This document shows, piece by piece, positions 6,850-32,522 of a stretch of DNA of 37,832 nt; the first letter of the stretch is position 1, and every line of letters starts with the position of its first letter. Source of the DNA: Salpingoeca rosetta (taxonomy: Eukaryota > Opisthokonta > Choanoflagellata > Craspedida > Salpingoecidae). The notes beneath the pieces are model-generated. The model worked only from the letters and a program-made list of their open reading frames with translations, was not told where the DNA came from and searched no databases. A program made the position numbers and the translations under genes. The stretch is taken from assembly GCF_000188695.1 (NCBI RefSeq), contig NW_004754930.1, forward strand, positions 705,528 through 743,359, given 5' to 3'.

Positions 6850-9800
6850 TTAAAGGTCCTCAAAGCACTCTGGCGCGATGGTGTCGGCAAGGGTGGATAG
6901 AGCATCAGCTGCTCCACGCGCCTGCTGCTCTCTGGTCATAAGGGACGTGGCCTGGAACTCGTGCTGTGAAGCAAGGGCAAGCTGCTCTGCCGTGTTGCTC
7001 GCAAGGGCATCCAGTTGCGAGGACAGCGTGCCTGCAAGCTCGATGGAGGCGGATGCCGCTTCGCTGTTCACGGCATTCAGTGCCTGGCGAAGGTTGGACC
7101 CCGTTGCCTGCGTGTTGCTGATGATCGTGCTCGCTGCGTCGTAGCATTCAACTGCCGCATCCGTTACATCTGTGTGTTTGTGTGTGTGCATGCACAAGGA
7201 AAAAAAAAAAAAAAGAAAAGAGGGGGAGGGGAGGCAAACGATGGACGCTGGTTAATGTATCACAGTATTGTAACGCCAAGCAAATCAAGTGCAGACGAAC
7301 GGTGTCACATACACGCGCACACACACACATACACGCACACACACACACACACACATGCAACACACGCACACACACATGCAACACACACACACACATGCAA
7401 CACACACACACACAGACACACACACACGCACGCACACACAAACACGAACACAACATGCAGTCAAGCATGTTCCTCCCCCCCCCGCGCCTTCAAAGGTCCC
7501 CGTGTACCTGAGGCGGAGGACGCAACGGACTGTGTGCTGGCAATATCGAGTTCAAGCTGCGATGTTAGCTCCGCTGCATCGGCGTGGCGTGCTGTCACCG
7601 CTGCCTGCCGGGACGTCAGCTCGGATGTGGTGGTGGACATGACTTGGACGCCAGAGGTTTCCTCGGCCAAGCGTCCCTCGATGGAAGCAGCCGCATCTGC
7701 CTCACTCGACAGCCCGCTCTGCACGCTGTCCAGCTCAGACGACAGCTGCGAATACAACGACGTGTCCGCGGAAACGGCGGCCTCAAGCGAGTTTGCAACC
7801 CGCACCTGTTGCGAGTGCTCTGCCACCAACTCGTTCGCCTCCAAGCTCAGTTCCTGGCGCAGGTCCACCTTGGTGGTGAGGCACTCGCGCAGCTGGGACA
7901 CGCGCCTCCGAAACTCGCCCACACTCACGGGGAGGCTGTATTCCAGGGCTGCAGACACGGCGGCCTCGAGCGAGCTGTGCTGGGTCACCAGCTGAGAGGC
8001 AAGCTCCTCGTTCATCACAGACAGCTGGCCATCAAGCGAGACCACCGTTTGCTGCAGGGAAGAGGCGAGCGAGAGCTGAGAGTTGGCGCTGTTCACGGCG
8101 GCTGTTGCCTCCGACTGCTTGGCCAGAACTTGCGTCAAGAGCAGGCTTGCGTCAATGTCAATGCCGGTCAAGCCCGTGAGCGCCTCGCGCAGGCGGGACA
8201 GCGTCGTGTCCATCATATCTGCCGCTGTTTCTGCAGCGGAAGCCTCCTGGGTGGCGGTGGCCTCCAAAGCGGAGGCCAGGGTGGACAGCGCATCCGTCTC
8301 CGCGCTGTGGCGCGAAATTTGCGAGGACACCGCGTCCACGGCGTCGCTGTAGTCCATGGAGGCGATGTAGGCCGAGTACGCGTCGATGCGCGCCGATGCA
8401 GACTGTGCACGCGACACGGCGGCCGTGAGCCAGTCACCAATGGACGAGATGCGATCACTCGCAGCGCGGGCCTCGTCAAGCAGCGCAGCCTTCACGCGCT
8501 CATTCTCGGCCACAACAAACGTCTGCACGTCCGGCAGCAGCGCAGAGTGCGCCACGTAGTCTGCGCAGCCGAGCTGGGTGCAGTTGTTGATGGCCACCTG
8601 CTCAAACAGTGCCAGGCGCGGGATGGTGGTGACGCAAATGTCCTCGATGAAGTCGCGGTTGACGTTCACCAGGCCGGCCTCGTCGCCGACAATCTGCACG
8701 TTTGCCTCAATGCCGCCTGCGATGTCGAGCAGCGTGGGCATGTTGATGCTGGAGCCGATGCCCAGGGCGATGGTGACGACGCCAAGCTGCTGCAGCGCCT
8801 CGATGCCCACGGGCACGTTGACGACGTCGTCGGCGGTGGTGCGGCCGTCTGTCAGGACGAGGAGGAGGCGGTTGGAGCCCTGCGAGTTCATGCTAAACTC
8901 CTCCGCCGTGCGGCGCAGCGCGGTGCCAATGTAGGAGAGGCCCGCCTGCTGCTGGTAGTTGGCGTCAAAGTTGGCAAAGAGGGTGGCGTTGTCGGCAGTG
9001 AACGGGCTGATGAGGCTGAAGCTGCCTGGGCCCGCAAACTGGGCCAGGGCCACGCGCGCGTTGAGCGCAGTGGAGGAGAGGAGCGGGCTGATGGACTTGG
9101 CCAGAAACGAGCGCAGGGTGGAGGGCGAGTTGGTGGGCAGCGAGGTTGACGTGTCCAGGAGCACAAACACGTCCGAGATTGTGCGGCTGCACTCGGCGTC
9201 CGAGGTGGAGGAGGTGGAGGCGCGGCCCTTCTGCACGATGAGCACGCCGTCAATGCTGATGGTGCGGATGCATGCGCTGGCAGATGGGAGGGGCTGCCCG
9301 CGGATCACAATGGGGCTCGGGGTGCCCACATGCACGATGCCCGGGACATTGAGGCGGCAGCTGGGCACGGCGGTGGACGTTGCAGTACCATCGATGCGGA
9401 GCAGGATGCCCGCCTCATCGCGCACCACGTGGATGGTGTGCAGGACGGAGGCGTTTGCCTGAAAAGCCGTGGCGACCTCCGTTGTTGTGCCGTCACATGT
9501 GAGGCGGAAGAGGACTTGGTCATCGGTCGCGGCGAGCACGAAGCCGTCCTGGGGCGGGGTTGTGGGCGCGACGCTGGAGCTTGTGGCCAGCATGATACCC
9601 AGCGTGTCTCCCTCTTGCACCTGAAAGGTGATGAGCATGTCGTTCTGGAGAGCGCCGGTTTCCATCTGGAAGGAGCCGTACCCGCCGGCAGCGGCGTCAA
9701 TGTCGCCGGAGAAGTGGTAGTTGTCTGCTGGCGGCAGGTTGGTCGGGCAGAGGCCGGCCGTGTTGGCGCTGACGTCGGCAGAGGTGGAGGAGAAGAGGGT

Positions 9801-10289
9801 GTTGAGACCCGTGAGCTGGGAACTGGTTGAGGAGACGGTGGTGGAGAGCTCTGATGCTGCGGCCTCCAGGGACGCAGCGGCAACAGAGACGTCTGTGTGG
9901 GTGGAGACTGCGGCTTGCGTGGAGGCTGCGAGGGCGTCCGCGTCAAGGGCGCCCAGGGTGGTGGATGTCTGTGACTGGAGGGTGCTTGCCTCTGCGCTGA
10001 CCTGGGATGCCTGGCTTTGGAACGCGCTTGCATCCGTGGTTCCGCCAGACAGGCTGAGCAGGTGCTGCGCGGGCTGTTCGATGGAGGCCTGCGTTGTTTC
10101 GATGCTGCTGAGGGCGCCCTGGTACGCTTCATCACAGGTGGAAGCTGGGTCATCCGTGCACGCTGGTTCCGTGCATGGATGCATGAGTTGCTGCGCGTGC
10201 ACGCCGCAGCCGAGGACGGACGCCACAACAACAAGCACAGCCACAGCAGCGGTGGCTGCCACAACGACGCTGCGTTGCCTTCCGACCAT
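6850..10289 (-). CDS. Secreted LamG/von Willebrand A coiled-coil matrix protein, 2 exons
   Basis: Exons 10289-7508 and 7169-6850 join in phase 1 to 1,033 residues. I chose the ATG at 10289 because it opens a signal peptide (Arg near the start, then an Ala/Val-rich core ending at about residue 33, VHAQ). An in-frame ATG at 10391 would add 34 residues of intron-like CA-encoded sequence. The order is: Ser/Thr/Ala-rich coiled coil (about 40-165), LamG-like beta sandwich (about 190-365, ending CIRTISIDGVL), and vWA domain (about 368-560). The vWA has an intact MIDAS: DTSTS 379-383, Thr456 in IGTAL and Asp481 in LTDGR. A long coiled coil (about 590-1025) follows, with single Cys residues and a last Cys in PECFEDL at the end. 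There is no membrane anchor, so it is secreted. MIDAS implies metal-dependent ligand binding. The gene is head to head with the laminin-like gene, 521 bp apart, suggesting matrix partners. Confidence 0.88.
7196..7455. repeat. A-tract and mixed CA/ACATGCA repeats in vWA gene intron
   Basis: A 15-base A run (7200) with purine-rich flank is followed by CA dinucleotides broken by regular ATGCAACA units at 7354-7404. All lie in the single intron of the minus-strand vWA gene. Confidence 0.9.
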
Positions 10290-10810: not shown

Positions 10811-10948
10811 ATGATGAGGATGGCGGCACGCTCACGCGTGCTACCGTGGCACCTTGTGATGAGTTCCATGCTCCTCGTGCTGTTGTCGACCCAGAACACT
10901 GCCCATGCCACCATCTGCATCGACCCCATCCCGGAACAACGTGTGTGT

Positions 10949-11032
<84 letters not shown>

Positions 11033-11773
11033 TTGTCGTGTTTGCGTGTGTGTGTGTGTGTGTGATTGTCGTGTTTGCGTGAATGTGTGTGTGTGTGTGA
11101 TTGTCGTGTTTGCGTGAATGTGTTCATCTGAGCACTTTTTGTGCGCGTGAGCACTTTTTGTGTGCCCCCCTGTCCACACGACATGCAGCACGCGTGCCTC
11201 TTCCAAACCTCACGCACCACCTCCCTTTCAATTACCTCACGTCATGTCATCTCATGGCTACAATCTCTTGTCCAGATCACTGCGTTGACCTCACTGCCGA
11301 GGTCAACAGCACTTGCACTGGCAATGACTTTCTCTGCACCGCACAAGGTAAATCGTGCACCAAGATGTCAATCGTGCTCGCTCATTTCCCAAAGCACCAC
11401 CACCATGGCATCAGTGAGCGCCAGCCAACCTTATGTCGACTACCTCGAGTTTACCTGCAGCGTGCCTGCATGCATGTCGAACACCCCCCTGCTGCGAGTT
11501 ATCACTGTTTCTTATCGTCCGGTCTTCCACACCACCACTGCCCAACTCGCTTTGCTTGCTTGCTTTGCCAGGTGGCCGTGTCGCGATGAGCACGTTCAGC
11601 TGCGACGTCGTTCGTTGCGAGGAAGTGACGTTGCAAGAGTCCCTTGAAGACCCCAATGACGACATCACCTCGGCCTGGTGGTCCGAGCCGGGCGACCAAT
11701 TTGTCACCATCGACGTGAACCTCGACCCAACTTGCGACGTACGCCTGCACATGCGTGTGTGTATATGTGATGG

Positions 11774-11809
<36 letters not shown>

Positions 11810-12420
11810 CGTGCGTGCGTGCGTGCGTGTGTGTGTGTGTGTGTGTGTGTGCGTGTGTGTGGTTTTGTCATCACGACGCTTGTCACATTGTGCTTGTGTT
11901 TGTTGCATCCTGGTGGTTGTACCGTGCCCGTGAGCTCTTGAACTTTGCGTATTCCCCACAGCTTCGCCAGTTTGTCCATGCGACCGTTCACAGCCTCACT
12001 CAGCTCACTCACCCACAACCTGTGCTTCCGTTCCCCTTTCTTTCACAATGGCAGGGCACGGCTTCGAGCGAGGATCGGTTCAAGTGGCTTGGAGGGTATT
12101 TCTCCGTCACGTTTGCCTCGCGCGTTCCCCGCACCATGGTCATTGAGCGTTCTGTCGACAACGGCAACACCTTCACGCCATGGCAGTACTACGCAGAGGA
12201 CTGCAGCACTGGTATGATTGAACGCAAATCGCTCAGTTGCACCTCTCCCCTGATGCAACAACTTGGGTCACAGCTGTTGTCCATTCGTTTACGCTTTCAC
12301 ACCGCTTCTGCGCTTCTGGTTGCGTTACACATGCCTGCTAGCTTGCCTTGTGTGTCTTTCAAAACAAAAATCACACACACACACGCTCACAACCTCCTTC
12401 TTCTCCACCACTCCTCCCCC

Positions 12421-12513
<93 letters not shown>

Positions 12514-12838
12514 ACGTCGTCGTCGTCGTNNNNNNNNNNNNNNNNNNNNNNNNNNNNNNNNNNNNNNNNNNNNNNNNNNNNNNNNNNNNNNNNNNNNNNN
12601 NNNNNNNNNNNNNNNNNNNNNNNNNNNNNNNNNNNNNNNNNNNNNNNNNNNNNNNNNNNNNNNNNNNNNNNNNNNNNNNNNNNNNNNNNNNNNNNNNNNN
12701 NNNNNNNNNNNNNNNNNNNNNNNNNNNNNNNNNNNNNNNNNNNNNNNNNNNNNNNNNNNNNNNNNNNNNNNNNNNNNNNNNNNNNNNNNNNNNNNNNNNN
12801 NNNNNNNNNNNNNNNNNNNNNNNNNNNNNNNNCCACCA

Positions 12839-12921
<83 letters not shown>

Positions 12922-15900
12922 ACACACAGTGCCTGACGCGTTCTTGGACTGTGTGGACATGCCAAACGAGGAAGTGCCCTTCCGCGTGGTGGTGAACCTC
13001 GTGTCGTACCCATTTGTGCCGTTTGTGCTGGACCCCTTTGCCAACGCCTCGGTCGCAGACAACGTGCGCGTGGACAGCGTGCGCCTGCGCCTGCAGCAGC
13101 ACAACATCCTCGCCTCCGACGGCGTTGCCGCAGACGAGCACGTGTACGGCATTGCTGCCATGGACATGGTGGCCTTGTGCGACTGCAACCAGCACGCAGA
13201 CACCTGCGTGCAGCAAAGCTGCCCTAGCGTTGCTCAGACCTACTGCGAGTGCCGCAACAACACCGCCGGCCGCAACTGCGAGTACTGCGCGCAGGGATAT
13301 CAGGCCACCGCCTGGCAGCAAGGCCCCGACTACGAATGCAGCGAGTGCCAGTGCCTCCCTGTCGCCACGTCGCCTGTCGCAGACCCGCTGTCCCCAACAG
13401 CAACATGCGTCGACGACGCAGGCCAGTGCCCGTGCGTGCATGCAACCATCGCGGGCACACACTGCGACTCACCCGTCAGCGCACACTTTGCCGCCCTCTA
13501 CGACTACGTGGATACGCAGCTCGAGGACATGTTCCTTGCCCAATACTCCATTGGCGTCGTTGTGGACGACACCCAGGACAGGTGGTACACGGGCCGCGGA
13601 TACGTTCGCCTCATCGCAGGCCAGAGCATCGCCTTCCAGGCGCCACTCGACACGCAGAGCCTGTTTGTTGATGCCATCGGCCCAGCCAGCCTGAGCCACT
13701 TTGTCGAGTACCGCGCGCTGGCTGAGGCCACCGTGACCACAACGGTCGGCGGCAGCGAAATCGTTCTGCAACCAACCTCGTTTGCTCGCCTGGAGGTGCC
13801 GCAAGATGCCGAGCTTGTGCTGGTCAGCGGTGGCCCTCTCCTTGTCGACCGCGTGCTGACCGTGCCAGCTGCATTTGTGGCCACGCCAAAGCTGCCGCCA
13901 TCCCTTTACCCGGATTTCCCGCGCGCAACAGATTTGGCGGGCCTGTACCCCGGCACGTGTGACGAATTCAACAGCAACCGCGACGCACCTGCCGCCTGCG
14001 CCGACATCGCCTTTGCCGAATCCGTTCGCACGTACGGCCAGGCCTTCCCTTGCGACTGCGATCCACGAGGGACAGAGGCGGGTACGGAGTGCGACCCATA
14101 TGGCGGGCAATGCGTGTGCCGCGCCAACGCCGTTGGTCGCAGCTGCGACGCGTGCGAGCTTGGCTTCTACCTCACCGAGACGGATGGCTGTGTTCCCTGT
14201 GGCTGCGCTGCGACCGACGACAACATTGCTCAGTGCCACTGCACTTCCTTTGGCTCCGTTGACGGCTTGTGCGCCACCAACGGCACCTGCGTGTGAGTAC
14301 TTGATCGAGTGCTTGAATGCGGCCGTGTACACGCATCTTGCTCTCGCGCGTTTGCTCTCGCGCGTTTGCTGGCTTCGTTGAGTTATCAATGCACGTCCTA
14401 CGTGTCAATTGCGTGTGTACGCGCTTTCTGTGTTTGTGTCCTCTGTATGCATGCATCATACGCTCTGCAGACGTGTGCGCTCTATGCACTTTCGCCCTTG
14501 CCTCACCACATTCTCTCATATGACGTGGTTACCCAACCCACCCCCCCCCCTCTCCCACGCCCTCGTTCGTTTCCTCCGTTTGTCACCCGCACGCAGGTGC
14601 CGGCCATACTTCACGGGCCCAACATGCTCCGAGTGCGTGGAAACAGCCGTCTTCGACCCAGCCACGCAAGAATGCATCCCGTGCCCAGATTGCGTGCAGC
14701 GGCTGAAGGAGCGCGTGGCCTGCGATGCCGACTACACAGCCATGCAGCTCGCCCTCGTGCCCTGGCACGGTGACATCCTGCAAGCGCTCGTTGCCATTGA
14801 TCAAGTCCTCAGCACCACCTCCCTGGCTGTGCTTGAGCGCCAGATGTTCTACGACTCCCAGAACGAAACCATCATGGACCTTGCGTTGCAGATTGCAACC
14901 ACCATCTCCGAGTTTGACGAACAGTTCATTGTGGACGTTGACGCTGCCCAGGCCCAGCTCAACACCGCGCTGTCCCTGGTGGAGGCCAGCCTGTCCGCGC
15001 TTGTGCTGCGCGTGCGTCAGTACGAACAGGCCGTGCTTGTCTTCTTTGCCTCGTGGCAGACGGTGCTGGAGACCGTGGCTGCCACCTACGATCCGGAGAC
15101 AGGCGACGAGTACGCCGCTGTTCTGGCGGGACTTCTGGACCGCGCGTCCACCTTCGAGGACAGCTTGCTTGAGGTGCAAGCAGCCTGTGCCGAAACCGCA
15201 ACGCTGGTCGGCACCCTCGTTGGGGAGCTGAACAACATCGCAGCCCTCAACGCATCCTTCAACGCAATCCCGCTGTCTGCCACCATCACCCACCTGCAAG
15301 CTGTCACGGCACAGGCAGATGCCCTGCGCACATCGCTTGACCTCCTCGCCGCAAGCATTCAGAACGGCAACAGCCTGCAGGCCAGCATCGCCAGCATGCG
15401 CGCATCCATCGCCACCACGCTTGGCCAGGCCGAGACAGCATCTGCCACCACCGCCTCCCTGCTCGCGCAGCTGGAGCAAACCAGCACTGATTACGACGAC
15501 GTTGTCGCGGATGTCAACGCAATTATTGCTGCTTGGACTGCGGACACGGGCAGCTTGACGGGTCTGCGCCAGGTTGCCATTTCCTCCGTGCTGCTGCAGA
15601 CGCGCGCTGCCGCCAATGCGTCGGTGATTGCCCTGCGCACCACCAACATGCAGGAGGCCGCAGACGAGATGGCCCGCATCTACGCCAACGCCATCAACGA
15701 CCCAGACATTCCGCAGGTGGTCCAGGACCTGATTGCGACCATGTCCCGCGTCATGAACATCATCGGCACCACCCCGGCCGTATTTCAGCGCGCAGACAAC
15801 GCCACTACCACGCTGCTTGGCCTCGACGTTGTGGCCCTGCATCTGGGCTTTGACGGTGCGGAGCAGTGGACGGCCATGCTGCAGGGACAAATCGCCGGCC

Positions 15901-18900
15901 TCCAGCCTGACCTCGTCTCACTGCACGAGCTGCTCGCACAGCTCTCGTCCGCACTGGACCCGGCCAACTTCCCCGAGCTTGATGTCAGTGGCATGGATGC
16001 GTCGCTGGCCAACACCGCCAGTGCTGCTGCTGATGTGGCAACGAGCGTGGCCGCACAGGATTCCGCCCTCACACCGCGCGAGGCCACCAACCTGCAGCCC
16101 ACACTGGACATGCTTGCCGCACGTGCTGCAGCCATGACCAATGAGACCTCAAACGGCGCTGCCCTGGCCACCAGCGTGCAGCAGCAGGCCCAGGCCCAGG
16201 CCGCAGATGTGGCTGACACCGTGCAGACGGCTCTGAGCGACGTCCAGCAGCAGGCGCAGGGCACGGCGGATGCCCTGTCCGCGATTGAGAGCAACGTTGA
16301 CGCAACCTCAACCCTGCTGGACGCACTGGAGGCGCGGCTGGCTCGCATTTCCGTGAGCGCCGAGTTTGTGGCTGCGCGCGCGCCGGTGCTTGAGCCGCGC
16401 ATCGCGGGCTCGGGCTTCTTCTCCTCCCCAGTGGACCTCGCTGTCACAAACGAGGGCCAGAACAGGTCCGGATACACGCTGGTGGGCAGCGTGTTTGGCG
16501 ACGCCATCGGGCCCCTGCCTCCTCTCAACAGCGCCAACGGCACCACACCTGCGCCCATGCCGTTCACAGGCATTGATCTGCAGATTGGCGGCGTGCCGCT
16601 GCCCATGAAGCGTGATCTTGGCTTTGCCAGCGTCTCGCTGCCATTCAGCTCCCACCGCCTGGCCGTGGAACCTGGCCCAGCCTCGTCGTTGTCGGCGTGG
16701 CGGCTGGCTGCCACCGCAGATGACAGCCTGTTGTTTGCCAGCGAGGGCTCCCTGCGCGTGCTGCTCCGCGCGGTGGACGGCTCCAACCAGCCCGTCGTTG
16801 CCGGTGTGCCGCTGTTTGCTCAGGCCGATGTCGGTGGCAACACCTTGCCCACGCTCAGTGGCTGGTGTGCCACGGCACACAACGGCACGTGCGTGGTGTG
16901 GATGGAGCTGCCACACGCGTGGCGCCGCTCCAACGTCTCCTTCACCATTCGCATGCGCGCGGGGCTGTCCGCAAGCGAAGCCGCGTCTGCAGCCGCCTTT
17001 GACACGCTGGCCTTTGTGCCCACGCCCGCCGTGTTGGATCTAGCTGAGACGGACAAGGAGCAGCTTGTGCTCGACGTGCCGCTGCACACCGTCACGGAAA
17101 CAGAGTGGTTTGCCGTGCACCTGCGCAGCCTGTACGATCGCGCCGTGCGCTCGTTTGTGGTGCGCATCACGCTGCCGCTTGGCGTTGTGTTCTCCAGTGC
17201 CAGCCCGACCGAGGCGTTCAACGTCGCCGTGTTGCACCAGTCCACCAACGCAGAGGGGCGCCAGGTCCTCGTCATCACCGGCATTCGCGAGACCGTGAGC
17301 GTCCCGGCCGCCGCGCCGCTTGACTCGGAAGTCCTGGCCATCCTTCGCTTCCAGTACACGGGCCTCGCTGGCCTTGTTGTGCAGGAAGGCACGGCAGCGT
17401 GGGGCCTGGAGATGCGCGAGGTTGTGTACGTGACTGGCCGTCGCGTCAGCGGCGTGCCACGCGCAGGCTCCATCGCCACCCGCTACAACGGCTACCAGGA
17501 GGCGCCACAGCCGTTCTCGTCGGCGTCCAACGGCGCAGTTGTGCTGGTGTCCAACCCGCTGCATCCGCGCCTGACAGACCTTCGCCCCGTTGCTCCCGAT
17601 GCCGCCAGCACCCGCCTCAACATCGTTGGCGTGTCTGCGCTGGGCGTGGCCGTGGACTCCACCGCCAGCCTGCAGTGCATTGCGCCTGGGAGCTCCGGCC
17701 TTGTGTTTGCGTCGGGGTCTGCCACCGCTGTTGGCAACGACTGCAACACGGTGACGCTGGAGGGTCGCCCGGCAGGCGTGGTGCCGTCCGCAGACATGTT
17801 GTTCCTGTCCAACGACGACCAGGGCTCCCGCGCGTCCACGCGCGTGTCGCTGCTGCTGCGGCGCGTGCAATCACTGGCCATTGACACGGATGTAGACTGC
17901 ATCAGTGCCGTGCAGGTGCCATCGTGCACGGGCGTCGTGCTCTCCGAGCGCATCCGTGTGGGCGTGCGCGCCGTCCTCAGCGACGGCATCGCCATCGACA
18001 TTACCCACGTTGCCGTGCGCGAGGCTGCGCTCGCATCCGCAAACGGCAACTTTGTCTTCACAGACAACGGGTACCTGGAACTGTGGGCGCCAGACCGCCC
18101 AACGGCGCAGCTGCCGCCCAGTGACACCATCACGCTTGCGCGCGCCTTGCCGAGCGGCGTGAGCTTCACCCCACGCGAGATCCGCATCGACCCGCCATCG
18201 CAGCCGGTCGGGCTTCGTGTTGACGCCTTCAACCCGGAGGACGTGTCCATTGACGCGAGCACGCTTGGTTCCATCGGTGCGTCCGGCGACATCACCGCTG
18301 TCCGCAGCACAGACGTGCTTGTGCTGATGGTGAGCCACCCCGATCGCCCCACGCTGCGTGTGGGCGGCGGGTCTCTTGCTGCCGTGCACGCGCGCCTGCT
18401 GCTGAGTGACGGTCGGCCCGTGGCGGTGGATCCACAGCACCTCGTCCTGACATCGCCAGCGTCCGGCTTTGCATTTGACGTGAGCGGCGACGGCAGCGCG
18501 GTTCTCACCCGCACCAACGCCAGCATTGGTGCAGCCCAGGCCCTAACGTTCGCATGGGCGCCCGGTTGTGCCGAGGGTGGGGACACGCAGGTGCTGACGG
18601 GCCAGCTGTTTGTGGATGTGGTTGCGCTGGACGGCGTCCTGCTGACAGACAGCAGCGTGACCATGTCCCTGTACGGAGACGCTGCCGTTGCTGCTGGCGT
18701 GCTGCGTGACTATCGTCCACAAGTAACCCTGCGCTACAACACGTATGTTGCCGACAGGTTCATCTACACGGACCTGACGGGCGCGTTGACGACTGCAAGC
18801 GTCACGCCCGCGGACAGCGACTACGTGGTTGTGACGGCGACAGCCAGTGGCCGCCCCGTTGTGAGCGGCGTGCGTACGGGGCAAACCAACCTCACCATCT

Positions 18901-20419
18901 CCTACACCACGCTCAGCGCTGTTGTTGACCTGACCATCATCCGCGCGCAGGGCATCACTGCATCGTACATTCCGTACCCACACCCGTCGGCCACGGCCGA
19001 AGCAAACCTGGACGACCTGTGGTCGCTGGCGTTGGCGGATCCACGCTTCTGCCGCGTTCCCTCCAGCCGCTCCTCGTCTCGCTTCCTGCAAGGCCAGGTG
19101 GTGGCCTTTATCACGCTCACCAACGGCACGCGCATCGCCGTGTCGCCCGGATCACCGGCTCAAGGTCAGAGAACAGCAAGTCATCGTGTGTGTGTGTCGT
19201 GCGCTGTGTCTGTGTTTTGTTTTGTATGTGTGTATTCATGTGTTGCGGGTTCATGTGTATTCATGTGTTTTTATGTGTATATGTGTTTGTGTGTGTTTGC
19301 GCCCAGTTATGGGTCGTTCCGAGTGAGTGCTGATATCTACTCGTGTAGTCGTGTGTTGTGATGCCTGTGCTGTGATGCTACAATTTGCCGCACAGCCACT
19401 TCTCATCATCACTGCCCACCCCACACCCCCCACTCACATATGTGTGTACCTGTTGTTTTGTCTTACCTCCTCCTTTGTATTTGTTGCTTACAGATTTGGC
19501 GTTCCAGCTGCTCGGCGCCCGGGTGATGGACGTTGCATTTGTGCCCTCCGCCACTGGCGGCAAGCACGTGACGCTGCCTTCCACGAGCGGGAGCTCTGCC
19601 ATTGGCGTTCGCTTTGCGTCCAGTGTCACCGCCATTCTGTCGCGTGTTGCAACCAGCACCGCCACCGTCAGCGGCCTTGAATGCGGGCTGAGCAGTCCTG
19701 CCGAGGCCTCGGCTGATTCTGCGTCGCTTGTTCGCTGCAGCATCATGTTTGCGTGCGGGTCTCAGTCCGTGTTTACCTACGCTGCCCATGCCCTGCAGTA
19801 TCTCGAGCCCGCGGATGTGCCACGGCTTCGCACGCAGCTGGCATTTGAGGACTACATTGCCCTCTCTGTGCAGGATCCAGAATACTCGTCCTCCTTCTCC
19901 TTCAACACTGCCACCGGCGCTGTCACCGTGCACCGCAACACGCCGACGCCCATCAACATTGTTGCCAGCAGTCCCTTCAACGCCGCGGCCTGGGCCACTG
20001 TGCCCATCGCTGGTGCGTGCGTGTGTGTGTGCGTGTGTGTGTGTGTGTGTGTGCCCACGCGCTGGGATGAACTGCTTTCTCAACTTTTGTACCTCGTCCC
20101 CGACACAAAACGACAAACCACCGTATTCTGTATTGTGTTGTTCTGCCTGCAGGCAATCTGAAGGCTGGATTCCTCGATGTCGATGTTGGCGGTGACGAGG
20201 ACGTGGCCATTGCCCCACTCGCCGCTGGCGAGGTATGTTTGACTTCGATGCTCGAGGTAGAAGAGTGCCGTTTGTGTTGCCCATCCAGAGCAGTGCCCTT
20301 AGCAGACTCGCGCTTATCCTTTTCGCGCCTTCATGCACTCACAGACATTCACACACGTCAGCACTACCTCTACTTGTGCTGGTCTGCTCACGCCCACCCC
20401 CCTTGCTCACTCACCGCCT

Positions 20420-20492
<73 letters not shown>

Positions 20493-23400
20493 ACCTCTGC
20501 ATGTGCTCGTTGCTGTGTGACTGGCTTCTCAGGAGGTGGATGTGCCCGTCTGGGTGAACACGGAAGGCGTGGAGTTGGGTGCATTTGATGTGGAGATTAC
20601 TGTGATGGGCGACGTTGTGATTTCCGGCTTCATGCGGGCACCAGGGCTGCTCATGTCACAGGTCGTGCAAGCAGACAGCACGACGATTCGCGTGGCCGGT
20701 TTTGCTGCCGCCGCCGACCCCGTGCTCCTCACCCTCAGCCTGCAAGGCACCAGCCCTGGCGCCCAAGCCAACGCCACGTCTGTTGCGCGCATCACGCCGT
20801 TCATCAACGTGCTGGCCACCGAAGACTTCTCGGCCGTTGTGGAAGACACGCCCGCAACAGCCGGTGACGTCCCCGTCTTGATTACCAACGCAGACACCAG
20901 TACCAACACCACGCTTCGTCGCCGCCGCCGTAGCGGCCACAGCAGCGCCGCCAGCGATGAGGCTGTTGCAGTCGCACCCGTGTCCACAGCAACAACGATG
21001 ACGACCAAGCGTGCGCGGCGCAACTTGGATCCACTCTTCATTGACTGCACCTTCTTTGAGTTTTACATCACGGGCGAATGCCCTGACCCTGTTGCTTGCG
21101 ATGTGGATGTTCCCGGCGATGTTGATGGGGACTGCCGCGTGACTGCAATCGACGTTGCCATCATCTTCACGTACATCCAGGAGCGCGCCGTTGACTTCAC
21201 CACCGCGCGTGGCCGCCGGCTGCAGCAGCTGTCGCAGGCAGTGGATCTGATGCTGCGTGCCGATGTGGATCACTCTGGCCTGGTGAACACGGACGACGCC
21301 GCCCTGCTGCTCTCTGCGCTTCTCGGCAACGCACGTCTCATGGCCTTTGAGGCGGACGCAGCCGGTCCTTGGTTCTCCTCCCAGGTCACAACGTACGGGG
21401 AGCGGCCACCGCTGGACGACATTCGCGTGTACGCGCTCGTTGCCTCAACATGCCCGCGCCTGCTGTCTGCTTCCTTTGGGTCTCCCGCCGGTGCCGCCAC
21501 CCCCATTTCCGCGTCTGCGGCCCTGGAAACGAACGGCAAGGACCCCGTGCAGCCGCTCTATGCGCAGTTTGTGCCCATGCCCGCCGTCAACGCCACGACG
21601 CTGGCGCTGCACACGTCGCAGCCTGCGTTTGAGGATGTGTCGTCGCTCGGCGTGTCCTATGTGCAGGTGACGCGCGCCGGCTGGCAGGTGCTGTTTGACA
21701 GCGACACGGACGCGACAACAGAGTTTCCGCAGCGCATCTCTGCTCGCGTGACGCCGTTTGCTGGCGGCCCGCTTGTCGGCCTGTTTGTTGACGGCCACAC
21801 GCCAGCCATCAGCGTGCAGCTGGACACGGCGCTGTCCATGGAGGGCGCCTACCCGGACTCTATGCCCAACTTTGTGTTCCGGCGGTACTCATACGTGGCC
21901 ACGGCGGCGACGGTGCTGATGAGCAGGCGTGTGCGTGGTTCGTTTGACTGCATGGCATACGAGTGCGCGCATCGCTGTGTGCAGGCTGGCGACGCGTGCC
22001 GTGGCTTCTCCATTGTGGTGGACATCGTGCCGCGCGCAACGTGCCTGCTCTTCCGCCAGCTGCAGGTGAGCACGACAGAAGAGCTTGGTGCGCACGACGC
22101 ATCCTACGCTCGCACAGTGGATGTGGACGTTCCCCCGATTCCAGGCAACTACGATCCTGTGTTCCAGGGCAACACGCCAGGCAACGCCGGCTCGCCGCTG
22201 CGCTTTGCCACCGCCTTTTCCGCCGACGCCATCATCTCCATTCTGAACGGGGTGACCGAGGTGCAGTGTGCGGAGGCATGCGATGCACAGGCAGCGTGCC
22301 TGGGCGTGTTCCACTGGCTCAGGGGCCAAACACCAGAGTGCCGCCTCCTCAACAACATTGGCGACTTTGCTGGTCTTCCAACCACAAGCGTGTCCATGTC
22401 CTTTGCCAAACAGGTATCGTTGTGCGTGTGTATGTGTGATTGTGTTTGTGTGATTGTGATTGTGCTTGTGACCTTGAGATCGTGTGTGTGTGTGTGATTG
22501 TGATTGTGTATGTGTGATTGTGTTTGTGTGTGTGTGTGTGATTGTGTTTGTGTGTGTGTGCGATTGTGTGATTGTATGTAACCTTGAGATAGTGTGTGTG
22601 TGAGTGTGTGTGTGTGTGATGTCAGAGCATCGCGTGTCGATGGTTGATGACCCCCCCACCCCCCCCCATGGTTGAATGCACCTTTCTAAACATGCATCGT
22701 GTTCGCTGTGGCTTTTGCTCTTAGGTCTCCGATGTGATTCCAGATGGCTTTTCGTTGGCGCACATTGGGTTGACTGCGTTTGCCGCGAGCAGCACTGCGA
22801 CGCCACGCCGGTTCTCCACCGGCTTCAGTGCCTCTGCCATCATTTCCCGCACCTCGACAACGCTTGATGTGTGCGCGCAAATGTGTGAGGACGCTGTGCT
22901 CTGCCAGGGCTTCTTCTTCACCATGGAGAACGCCGAGCTTGCTTGCCGCTTGCTCTCGGACATTGGTACCACAGAAGGCACGCCAACCACGTCCTCGTCC
23001 ATCAGCGTGCGCAAGCAGGTTCGTCCTTGATTCGAGTGATGGTGGTGGTGGTGGTGGTGGTGGTGGTGACGATGATGATGGGTGATGGTGGTATCGGTTG
23101 GTGGTGGGCATTCAGTGCTAGCCTGCGTGTGTATGTTGCGAAAGATCAACACTCAACACCTGCACGTCCCCTCACGATACTCACACGCACACAACAACAA
23201 CAAACCCCACTTCCATGCACATGCTGCAGGCACTTGTGAGCGAGCCTAATGGGTACACGCTCGCTGCCACGGGCGCGTTCAGCGGTGTTGTGTCGCCCCT
23301 GCGTTTCGCCTCTGGCTTCACGCCATCGGCGTTCCTGTCGGAGGTGGACGTGCCATCACCGGCAGCGTGCGCTGCTGTGTGTGACAGCGAAGCCGCGTGC

Positions 23401-25485
23401 GTTGGCTTCTTCCTCTGGGTGCGCAGCTCGACCCGCGTTGTGTGCCGCACCCTGTCGGAGCGTGGCCCACTTGTTGCCACGTCGTCGTCCTCGTTCTCCT
23501 TCCGGCGCAATATGGTGCAGTCGCCGGTTGTTGCTGGCTACGAGCTGCAGTACGAGGGTGCGACGCCAAGCAACCCCGCAGGGCCCGCACTGCGCTACAG
23601 CACCGCCTTTGACGCTGCCAGCCAGATCTCCGTGTCCACTGTGGGTTCGTTGGACGAGTGCGCTGCGCTGTGCAGCAGCCAGACCCAGCAGCCAAACTTC
23701 TGCCGCGGCTTTTTCGCCTATCGCCAATCCACGCTTCGCTGCATCACCCTCCGCTCTCTCGGCACCGCTGTTGCCACAAGCACAAACTCCTACTCCTTCA
23801 GTGACGAGGTACGGGCTTGCCATGCTGCCACTGCTTGTATGTCATGTGGTGGTTGTGTGGTGTTGGTGGTGTTTGGTCTGTGGTTCTGTAACGCAAGACT
23901 GCTGATGTTGTTGATGATGATGATTGCGAGCTGACTCCTTGAACATTTCTCTCACCCTGACTTGGTGTCCATCATTGGCACGTGTGTGCATGTGTGCGTG
24001 TGTGTGTGCGTGTGTGTGTGCGTGTGTGTGCGTGTGTGTGCGTGTGCGTGTGTACATGTGGGTGTGTTGGCGACTGCGCGTTAGGCTCCCTTGGTGAAGC
24101 TGGGCTTTGCTGGCGTGTTTACGGGCGTGTCGCGTCGCTTCTCCACAGCGTTTTCTGCCGATGCACTCCTTCGCTCGTTTGTTGTCGGCACTGACCTGGA
24201 CCAAACGTCGCTGACGTGCGGTCTTGCGTGTGATGAAGACGCCGCGTGCGAGGGTTTCTTTACCTATGTGACACCCAACGGAGGCATTCAGTGCCGTCTG
24301 CTGTCTGACCTGGGAACATCCCAGGGTGTGGCCACCACGCTCATCTCCAATTCATATGCCAAGGTGGTCGTGCCAACCACTACCACAACTTCAACAACAA
24401 CCACCACCACATCAACAACAACAACGACATCGACGACGACAACCACCACATCAACAACCACAACTACAACGACAACCACTACCACAACAACAACCACCAC
24501 CACTTCGACAACGACAACAACAACCACCACATCAACAACAACAACCACATCGACGACGACAACCACCACATCAACAACGACAACGACCACATCAACAACA
24601 ACAACCACCACCACAACCACCACCACTACAACCACTACCACATCGACAACCACAACCACTTCGACCACCACGACGACGACGACAACCACATCAACGACAA
24701 CCACTACCACAACTACAACCACTACCACAACTACAACCACAACTTCAACCACAACCACAACCACAACCACCACAACGACGACTACCACATCGACAACCAC
24801 AACCACTTCGACCACCACAACCACAACCACGACAACGACCACTTCGACCACCACGAGCACCTCGACGACTACCACAGATGTGCTCGCGGCTTTCGCGCTT
24901 GATTTCGAAGGCGCCAACCCAGGCTCCACTGGCCCAGCTCGGTCAGTTCGGCCCCAGCACCTTTGTTCCTTGCCTGTCTTGTTTCATCTCCCCCCTGCAT
25001 TGTGACGCTTTGGCTCACACATGCACTTCCTTGGTTGCTTTGGCGTGTTGGTGGTCATGCAGGCGGTACTCCACTGCGTTTGATGCCAACGCGCTGGTTG
25101 TGCAGCGCGTGGTTGGCTTGAGCGCCTGTGCCTCTGCATGCACCTCGGAGCCCCTCTGCCGCGGGTTCTTCTGGTACAGCATCAACCCAGGTAAGGGCTA
25201 CACCTGTGTGCTCGTAAATGTACGTGCATGTGTTTGTGTGTTTGTGTGCGTACATGTGTGCTTGAATGCGTGTGTGTGTGTGTGTGTGTGTGCTTGTATG
25301 CGTGTGTTGCTGTGACAAGCAACCTGTGTCAAGCACCCGGCGTGGATGTTGCATGTTTCTCACCCGCACGCCCACATATGCATATGTGCCTGGCAGCTGA
25401 GCCTCGCTGCCGCCTGCTGTCGGATCTTGGCACAGCCGCGGGCGTGACCACCTCCCTCGAGAGCTACAGCTATCGCCAGCTCTGA
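10811..25485 (+). CDS. Giant secreted laminin-beta/TMEM132/cohesin/dockerin/PAN mosaic matrix protein, 14 exons
   Basis: Exons: 10811-10940, 11276-11347, 11572-11738, 12055-12211, 12930-14292, 14597-19164, 19494-20012, 20153-20232, 20533-22413, 22725-23018, 23230-23808, 24085-24941, 25063-25190 and 25397-25485. They join to 3,627 residues. Order: signal peptide 1-33; laminin N-terminal domain (about 34-258, with the VDNGNTFTPWQYYA block); two laminin-EGF modules (259-358); beta-type laminin IV domain (to about 548); laminin-EGF modules (CDCDPRG, 549-660); coiled coil (660-1225); TMEM132-type ectodomain (about 1225-2150, marked by C-x(n)-CVVWMELPHAW, a cohesin-fold segment, IDITHVA, and Ig-like repeats); further beta domains; cohesin-like domain (about 2326-2450); polybasic sites RRRRR 2481 and KRARR 2511; dockerin 2542-2620; and seven Cys-rich PAN/Apple-like repeats (2802-3627) with a Thr tract at 3368-3534. 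There is no transmembrane segment. Exons 4 and 5 join in phase across the N gap. The exon 4 acceptor could instead be at 11960. Confidence 0.9.
10939..11032. repeat. (GT)n tract beginning at the splice donor of laminin-like intron 1
   Basis: The donor GT at 10941 is itself the first unit of a GTGTGTGTGC..(TG)n run. Three further TG blocks follow, separated by ATTGTCGTGTTTGCGTG units repeated at 11031-11119. Confidence 0.92.
11774..11860. repeat. (AT)n plus (TG)n/(CGTG)n compound microsatellite
   Basis: TATATA (11774-11797) runs into TGTG and CGTG units in intron 3 of the laminin-like gene. It is the only AT dinucleotide repeat in the window. Confidence 0.93.
12424..12928. other. Assembly gap (N, 12530-12832) flanked by two (CA)n tracts
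   Basis: A 303-base N run lies inside intron 4 of the laminin-like gene. The left side is (CA)n 12424-12511 ending in CGTACGTCGTCGTCGTCGT. The right side is CCACCACC then (CA)n to 12920. Exon 4 ends in phase 1 and exon 5 (12930) begins with the two bases that complete the codon. No exon need be missing, although one of length divisible by three could hide here. Confidence 0.95.
20424..20491. repeat. (CA)n microsatellite, laminin-like intron 8
   Basis: A pure CA tract about 40 bases before the acceptor of exon 9. Confidence 0.95.
22425..22619. repeat. (TG)n/(TGATTG)n compound repeat, laminin-like intron 9
   Basis: TG dinucleotides interleaved with GATTGTG units. ACCTTGAGAT occurs twice (22469 and 22580), indicating a local duplication of about 110 bases. 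Confidence 0.85.
23039..23068. repeat. (GGT)n trinucleotide repeat in intron 10
   Basis: Ten GGT/TGG units just downstream of the exon 10 donor, followed by GATGATGATG. Confidence 0.9.
23983..24056. repeat. (TG)n with CGTG interruptions, laminin-like intron 11
   Basis: TG-rich tract ending about 30 bases before the exon 12 acceptor (TTAG). Confidence 0.9.
24376..24876 (+). repeat. Thr/Ser mucin-like tract (167 residues)
   Basis: Residues 3368-3534 are almost only Thr with a Ser every five to eight positions. All four ACN codons are used, so this is an old, degenerate tract rather than a young triplet expansion. It lies between PAN-like repeats 6 and 7. Dense O-glycosylation and a stiff extended linker are expected by analogy with mucins. 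The valine-rich reading frame on the other strand is an artefact of this composition. Confidence 0.93.
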
Positions 25486-26190: not shown

Positions 26191-27091
26191 TGTGTGTATG
26201 TGTGTGTGCGCAAGTTGAGGGGGGAAGCTGCTTGATAGAAGCGAATGCAAAGCCAATGATAGTGCATCAACATCGCACGCATGCATGCTCACACACGCTC
26301 CCCGCATCATCTTCCTCCCTGTCCTTGTTTTCTGTCATTGTCGACGTGTGCAGGTGTACATGCACGTGTGGGACTTTGCGGGTGCGAGGCAATTCCAAAG
26401 CCTGTTGAGGCCATATGCTCGAACCTGCTTCGCAGTGCTTCTCGTCTACGATGTCACAGGTATGTGGCGAACATGATCGGTTACAAACCCTTCCTTTTCC
26501 TTCATTGCGCTGCTGTGCTTCCTGCGCCCCTGCATTGGTGCTAACCGCTTGGTAATCACAAGATCACACATCAAGTCATCACGCGACAACAACCACCTGG
26601 TTGCTTGCTTGTGTGGCTGTGTGTGTGTGTGTGTGGGGGGGGGGGGCAGATGAAGCGTCATTCGATGCGCTCGACCACTGGGCAGCGCTGGCACAGGAAG
26701 ACCCAGGCACGCGGCCCCAGCTTGCGCTAGTGGGCATGAAGAGCGACCTCGCAGACAAGCGCCAAGTGACGCGGGAGGCAGCAAAGCTGAAGGCCCTGTG
26801 TTTGGGTGCAGAGCTCTTTGAGGTGAGCGTCCACAATCCAAACAAGGTTCGCCTGCCTTTCCACCACCTGGCACACGCTGCTTGTCAACAGCAGTTGGAA
26901 ACCGAGCCAACAGCCACCGGCCATCAAGACGACGCTCACGGTGAGTGAACCATCACATGCGACGAATACAACTCACATGTCGGTGCTCATGCATGACGAG
27001 CGTGGGCATGACCAGGCTGGGGCGTGTTGTGATGGGGCATGTTGTGGTGGCGTTTCTTCTCACGTTCACACATACACACCCACACACCCAC

Positions 27092-27960: not shown

Positions 27961-32522
<4,562 letters not shown>

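Follow-up and report, generated by a model that had tools for sequence, protein, structure and literature searches.

The closest described systems are three cadherin families of choanoflagellates and sponges, the lefftyrins, coherins and hedglings, in which five TMEM132 domains were already reported in order by Sanchez-Pulido and Ponting, in the coherins together with cohesins (PMC6030884). The lefftyrins were considered as possible carriers of a laminin N-terminal (LN) domain, and PMC12221298 gives EGF and LamG domains for them instead. The gene considered here belongs to Salpingoeca rosetta, a member of the choanoflagellates, which are the unicellular sister group of animals, and occupies positions 10811-25485 (+ strand) of the window, which is the whole analysed stretch of 37,832 nucleotides (C4:705528-743359, contig NW_004754930.1). 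Its predicted product carries a TMEM132-type block behind a laminin-type head. The animal TMEM132 proteins A to E, which span the membrane once and bear cytoplasmic motifs (PMC6030884), share with this block the succession of Ig-like, cohesin-fold and BIG-like domains.

The window protein shares the ordered TMEM132 domains with the three cadherin families, whereas it possesses a laminin-type head and a rod and gave no cadherin match at expectation values (E) up to 1 in the eight pieces of it that were scanned. No transmembrane helix was seen in a Kyte-Doolittle scan of the protein (highest 19-residue mean hydropathy 1.68), and in contrast to the animal TMEM132 proteins it ends in a PAN-like module. 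No description of a protein with laminin, TMEM132 and dockerin modules was found in the open-licence PMC literature. The joining of TMEM132 and cohesin to a laminin-type head and a dockerin is apparently new, whereas the presence of TMEM132 and cohesin in premetazoan adhesion proteins is already published. A first-pass annotation of the window had offered a possible hint of where TMEM132 domains acted before they became membrane receptors; that point was anticipated in PMC6030884, and the genome holds 17 matches to PF16070, the TMEM132 fourth domain.

Published statements on the origin of laminins disagree. Beta-laminin is placed among the metazoan-specific clusters in the S. rosetta genome paper (PMC4054682), and laminin gamma among the core animal-specific families (PMC6040629). 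Secreted laminins are stated not to be found in choanoflagellates and laminins to be a metazoan innovation (PMC4582122), while a laminin architecture in choanoflagellates is attributed to Fahey and Degnan 2012, as cited in PMC5395295.

Gene model and domain order

The exons, joined by hand, form a 14-exon gene with a single open frame of 3,627 residues and GT-AG borders at all 13 introns, which reproduces the gene limits given by the first-pass annotation. The frame starts with a putative signal peptide (10811-10909, + strand, residues 1-33), recognised by inspection as a hydrophobic stretch ahead of the first domain cysteine. To judge from the sequence, the product is very probably one secreted protein with the order laminin-type head, rod, TMEM132-type block, cohesin, dockerin and PAN-like modules; the single frame and the domain and profile matches agree here with what had been proposed. 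A Pfam search for the modules named earlier recovered Laminin_N, EGF_laminin, Dockerin_1 and, in two modules, PAN_1 over their cut-offs, and did not so recover TMEM132, Laminin IV B or Cohesin.

Exon 6 (14597-19164, 4,568 nucleotides) starts inside the last laminin-EGF module, continues through the rod and takes in all of the matched TMEM132 block before it ends farther downstream. The first-pass annotation had named a stop inside this exon as a sign of two separate transcripts; such a stop was looked for and none occurs in the 4,568 nucleotides. Because the end of the laminin-type head, the TMEM132-type block and the rod between them lie in one stop-free exon, their fusion is independent of splicing. 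Two genes fused by an error of assembly or gene modelling would be suggested by a run of 303 N bases (12530-12832) in intron 4, which may hide a small LN-domain exon. This explanation is nevertheless highly improbable, since the run lies inside the LN domain, whose flanking parts are complementary, the intron between exons 5 and 6 (14293-14596) divides laminin-EGF module 4 in frame, and exon 6 is one unbroken frame that starts in that module and runs past the TMEM132 block.

The TMEM132-type block

The block (16668-18701, + strand, residues 1321-1998) lies entirely in exon 6 and is composed of an Ig-like domain, a cohesin-fold domain (17052-17531, + strand, residues 1449-1608) and further Ig- or BIG-like domains. 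It was compared with a profile built from the genome's own TMEM132 blocks, namely 12 of the 17 PF16070 matches; the five omitted were two whose frames are truncated, one that spans two loci, one at the edge of a locus and one not fetched. All 12 blocks contain PF16070 and two of them a cadherin match in the aligned stretch, and two are near copies of each other, with 668 of 693 positions the same. In hhalign, residues 1320-1998 matched this profile with a probability of 97.9%, E 4.8e-13 and a score of 111.3, collinear across 606 columns. The controls scored at most 22.7 for eight shuffled versions, 19.7 for the reversed sequence, 16.4 for the head, 13.5 for the rod and 31.8 for a C-terminal piece. 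The claim that the segment follows the TMEM132 plan in order is borne out by this alignment.

A hidden Markov model (HMM) of the TMEM132 core, built without flanks, scored the window protein at 63.2 bits, the match covering positions 15-638 of the 692 in the model. A first model that included the flanks was dropped, tiles of a cadherin locus (L036) having reached up to 86.7 bits with it in a run of 93 tiles, the window included; this locus is cadherin throughout, with 27 cadherin stretches in 3,300 residues. With the rebuilt model the listed L036 tiles all scored 1.8 bits or less. The other tiles, with 19-195 bits, align with the cohesin-like part of the profile or with one of its ends and were taken as overlap with TMEM132 blocks or cohesins. 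Assignment of the block to the TMEM132 type is supported by three controlled profile tests together with the match of a cohesin fold within it.

The near copies in the profile come from one locus (L019, C8:207000-216900), where two TMEM132 blocks 5 kb apart agree at 668 of 693 aligned residues. Likewise, the cohesins on contigs C3 and C16 have identical scores in nearly identical sequence. Both cases appear to be either recent duplications or assembly duplicates.

Modules downstream of the block

Between the block and the next domain lies a stretch of residues 1999-2326 (18702-20154, + strand, exons 6-8), in which Pfam gives nothing over cut-off and the modelled part has predicted local distance difference test (pLDDT) values below 50. 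It is followed by a cohesin proper (20164-20826, + strand, about residues 2330-2450, exons 8-9), distinct from the cohesin-fold domain of the block. Residues 2330-2379 aligned with a profile of 10 of the 16 cohesin matches of the genome (hhalign 95.5%, E 1.5e-8, 50 columns, score 52.3, controls at most 16.8), and the separate cohesin that had been read by eye is upheld to that extent.

The type I dockerin (21112-21312, + strand, residues 2546-2612), also proposed earlier, gave a Dockerin_1 match of E 3.7e-8 and 33.9 bits when the piece was scanned alone (cut-off 22.9) and E 9.3e-7 within its exon. Both 12-residue calcium loops, at residues 2548 and 2596, are intact when compared with the usual loop pattern.

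The remainder of the chain holds the seven cysteine modules of the first-pass annotation, which align with one another as PAN-like modules, PAN_1 exceeding its cut-off in two of them when scanned singly. Modules 1 and 2 (21862-22413, + strand) were placed by alignment and by a PAN_1 score of 18.2 bits for the whole exon, module 2 alone giving 13.9 bits and module 1 alone no PAN_1 match. Module 3 in exon 10 (22725-23018, + strand) reached 20.7 bits against the PAN_1 cut-off of 21.4. Exon 11, which scores 26.6 bits with PAN_1, carries modules 4 and 5 (23230-23808, + strand). Scanned by themselves, module 5 lies over the PAN_1 cut-off with 24.4 bits and module 4 matches PAN_4 with 19.1 bits, below the cut-off of 27. 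Module 6 in exon 12 (24085-24366, + strand) was placed by alignment and a sub-cut-off PAN_4 match (16.2 bits, E 0.011). After a Thr/Ser-rich linker of about 170 residues (24367-24876, + strand), the chain closes with module 7 and the stop codon (24889-25485, + strand, exons 12-14; PAN_1 22.1 bits, over the cut-off of 21.4).

Taken with the laminin-type head, these modules would be best explained overall by a matrix cross-linker docked to cohesin-bearing proteins of the cell surface, a proposal drawn from the sequence whose chances appear about even. A different use of the same modules would be the capture of food bacteria or of surface polysaccharides, the cohesin, dockerin and PAN-like modules binding bacterial or glycan ligands and not the organism's own matrix. 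Choanoflagellates feed on bacteria, and PAN domains are frequent binders of proteins or glycans. Cohesins and dockerins, moreover, belong to bacterial cellulosomes (PMC6030884), whose scaffoldins combine both in one protein as the window protein does. The laminin-type head and the TMEM132-type block are, however, adhesion modules, the 16 cohesin matches of the genome offer partners of its own, and we regard capture of this kind as improbable. In contrast to scaffoldins, the cohesin and dockerin here are surrounded by eukaryotic adhesion modules, and no carbohydrate-active domain scored over cut-off in the pieces of the protein scanned with Pfam.

The N-terminal region and the rod

The LN domain (10913-13177, + strand, exons 1-5, about residues 35-258) was recognised by Laminin_N over its Pfam cut-off (residues 51-175, E 7.5e-13), and its closest PDB match, when searched alone, is netrin-G2. 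It is followed by a laminin EGF-like module and a truncated second one (13178-13474, + strand, residues 259-357), a candidate laminin LF (laminin IV B) domain (13475-14044, + strand, residues 358-547) and EGF-like modules 3 and 4 (14051-14690, + strand, residues 550-661), the last being split by an intron. EGF_laminin matched three stretches of exon 5 over its Pfam cut-off (E 2.8e-15); module 3 gave E 3e-8, the truncated module 2 alone was slightly below the cut-off of 21 (20.4 bits, E 5.7e-4), and module 4 was recognised by eye across the splice of exons 5 and 6. In protein searches the first 2,152 residues obtained 19 matches, of which 17 are named laminin or laminin-like, one is usherin and one is an unnamed protein with laminin domains; the best two are a laminin alpha chain and a laminin-like protein named epi-1.

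Identification of the LF domain is suggestive. The top PDB match of exon 5 in phmmer was laminin beta-2 (5lf2_A, LE5-LF-LE6, E 1.8e-18), whose score comes mainly from the flanking EGF modules, with two pieces at the LF edges in register. When the LF core was shuffled, the native score of 64.2 bits was equalled in one of 300 versions. Against an LF domain, the Pfam LF model had no match in exon 5 or in the genome, and likewise none in the control genomes. A narrow hhalign profile of five animal beta LF domains (effective number of sequences, Neff, 1.7) lent no support, scoring 16.6 against at most 16.7 for shuffled versions and 20.0 for another stretch of the same protein, nor did an AlphaFold model of exon 5 with five laminin beta chains (pLDDT 29.9). 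The laminin-beta head of the first-pass annotation therefore stands as regards its LN and laminin EGF domains, whereas the word beta was overstated, the LF evidence being suggestive only, the LN domain lying nearest netrin-G2 and alpha and epi-1 proteins heading the matches; the chain type as such is unproven.

The rod (14691-16367, + strand, residues 662-1220, about 560 residues) is rich in helix; Ala, Leu and Thr are abundant, and a count over 566 residues gave 12 Pro and 18 Gly. Its weak matches to helical and coiled-coil families in Pfam are all below cut-off. With Lupas weights, a coiled-coil probability above 0.5 was found for 39 of the 566 residues and above 0.1 for 216, as compared with 316 and 286 residues above 0.5 in two fish laminin beta chains of full length. 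A helix-rich rod was thus found where a coiled coil had been annotated, the coiled-coil signal being weak.

In laminins a long coiled coil forms the trimer, and the chain ends with it. The order LN, laminin EGF, candidate LF, laminin EGF and rod is that of an animal laminin beta chain, from which the window protein differs by fewer EGF modules (about 4), by the weak coiled-coil signal and by running on for some 2,400 residues past the rod with its TMEM132, cohesin, dockerin and PAN-like parts.

Related loci in the genome

The genome searched comprises 54.4 Mb in 49 contigs. All 17 PF16070 matches and all 16 cohesin matches lie outside the window. Eleven of the 16 cohesins follow a same-strand PF16070 match at a distance of 570-650 residues, a spacing to which the gap of about 614 residues in the window corresponds, and TMEM132-cohesin is for that reason considered a recurrent cassette. 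Dockerin is represented by two matches, this gene included (17 candidates scored), and Laminin_N by three loci, this gene included.

The two other Laminin_N loci differ in their setting. The one on C5 (L030, L031; C5:730000-749800) has LamG, Laminin_N, laminin EGF, VWA and FN3 in a row and is reminiscent of the plan of usherin. The one on C12 (L032; C12:356000-365900) has Laminin_N, laminin EGF and a growth-factor-receptor Cys-rich (furin-like) domain. In the frames of at least 60 residues from about 30 kb at each of these loci, the TMEM132 HMM reached at most 4.5 bits, and neither locus showed a TMEM132 block there.

These counts bear on an explanation by lineage-specific domain shuffling, according to which a laminin-type head was exon-shuffled onto the common TMEM132-cohesin cassette with no special link to basement membranes. 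The cassette is indeed present many times, the other LN matches stand in two different settings, and a homologue of the whole architecture is absent from the protein-search matches, which extend to relatives sharing short exact words. Chance shuffling, on the other hand, would not favour the laminin-chain order of LN, EGF, candidate LF, EGF and rod, and this explanation is judged rather unlikely, if still worth serious weight.

The only other dockerin match of the genome is on C23 (L043, L027; C23:524463-539250). The order there is TNFR-like repeats (read by eye), a PAN-like stretch (PAN_4 16.4 bits, sub-cut-off), poly-Thr linkers, a TMEM132 block of 171.9 bits, cohesin, dockerin and EGF repeats. 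A tyrosine phosphatase exon (E 3e-73) follows just downstream in another reading frame; the gene probably ends in this phosphatase, and its description as a receptor is a reading of unspliced exons. The C23 gene shares with the window gene the order TMEM132, cohesin, dockerin, the PAN-like stretch and the Thr linkers, and differs from it in having no Laminin_N match and in the phosphatase exon that follows.

Neighbouring genes

A divergent gene (6850-10289, - strand; exons 7508-10289 and 6850-7169) encodes 1,033 residues with GT-AG borders and one stop at the end, and 522 bases separate its start codon from that of the laminin-TMEM132 gene. Its product shows a signal-like N-terminus, a helical-looking stretch, a possible LamG-like domain (Laminin_G_1 14.2 bits, cut-off 24), a VWA domain (E 9.3e-13) and a long helical-looking stretch, with a cysteine near the C-terminal end (ECFEDL). 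It is possible, as a guess, that the two genes are co-regulated partners.

Elsewhere in the window, a Pro-kumamolisin activation domain (1391-1831, + strand, E 1.1e-15) marks the start of a sedolisin-type peptidase gene, an exon of a Ras-family GTPase lies at 26556-26948 (+ strand, E 2e-8), and a carboxyl transferase gene has exons at 29237-31930 (- strand, best E 1.8e-45).

Possible role and significance

In the preferred reading, that of a docked cross-linker, the protein would be a secreted modular protein of the extracellular matrix or of adhesion. Its head and rod might mediate self-association or a pairing with a second rod protein, for which the product of the divergent neighbour is a possible candidate. 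The dockerin, with calcium, would bind a cohesin on a surface protein, either a TMEM132-cohesin adhesion protein or the product of the C23 gene, and the cohesin of the protein itself could accept another dockerin. Adhesion receptors would in this way be cross-linked to a laminin-like matrix. Docking by cohesin and dockerin, taken as a mechanism by itself, is put forward tentatively, its probability falling somewhat short of one half.

Several observations weigh against this reading. No Pfam TMEM132 model is over cut-off within the window, where TMEM132_3rd alone is listed (E 0.12, 12.4 bits, cut-off 27), and PF16070 has no match there against 17 elsewhere in the genome. The top Foldseek matches to the model are an S-layer protein and complement C3, with no cohesins among them. 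The cohesin alignment spans 50 of the 151 residues submitted, at the start of the domain, and the Pfam Cohesin model has no match in residues 2327-2475. Residues 1310-2600 obtained no match in protein searches, which thus gave no homologue of the TMEM132 part, nor did the alignment with the 12 TMEM132 blocks of the genome; such searches detect relatives only where short words match exactly, and conservation of the whole architecture is without support from them. The rod appears helical with a weak coiled-coil signal. The partner of the dockerin is a guess, and the protein's own cohesin or a bacterial one might bind it instead.

A stronger version would see in the protein a pre-animal laminin-beta-like chain (LN, EGF, LF, EGF, rod) serving a linkage of matrix to receptor by cohesin and dockerin. 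A secreted chain and a receptor tyrosine phosphatase would then account for both of the dockerins in the genome, the TMEM132-cohesin proteins would be their sockets, and the divergent gene with its rod and VWA domain would supply the partner chain. We regard this version as unlikely.

Overall, the observation made in the first-pass annotation is largely real and its interpretation partly supported. A laminin-type head, an EGF array and a rod in one secreted protein of a choanoflagellate would bear directly on the disagreement about the origin of laminins. From the architecture it would seem that adhesion modules were being combined with laminin-like matrix proteins outside animals, and docking of cohesin and dockerin would offer a concrete and testable connection of the matrix to adhesion receptors in a eukaryote.

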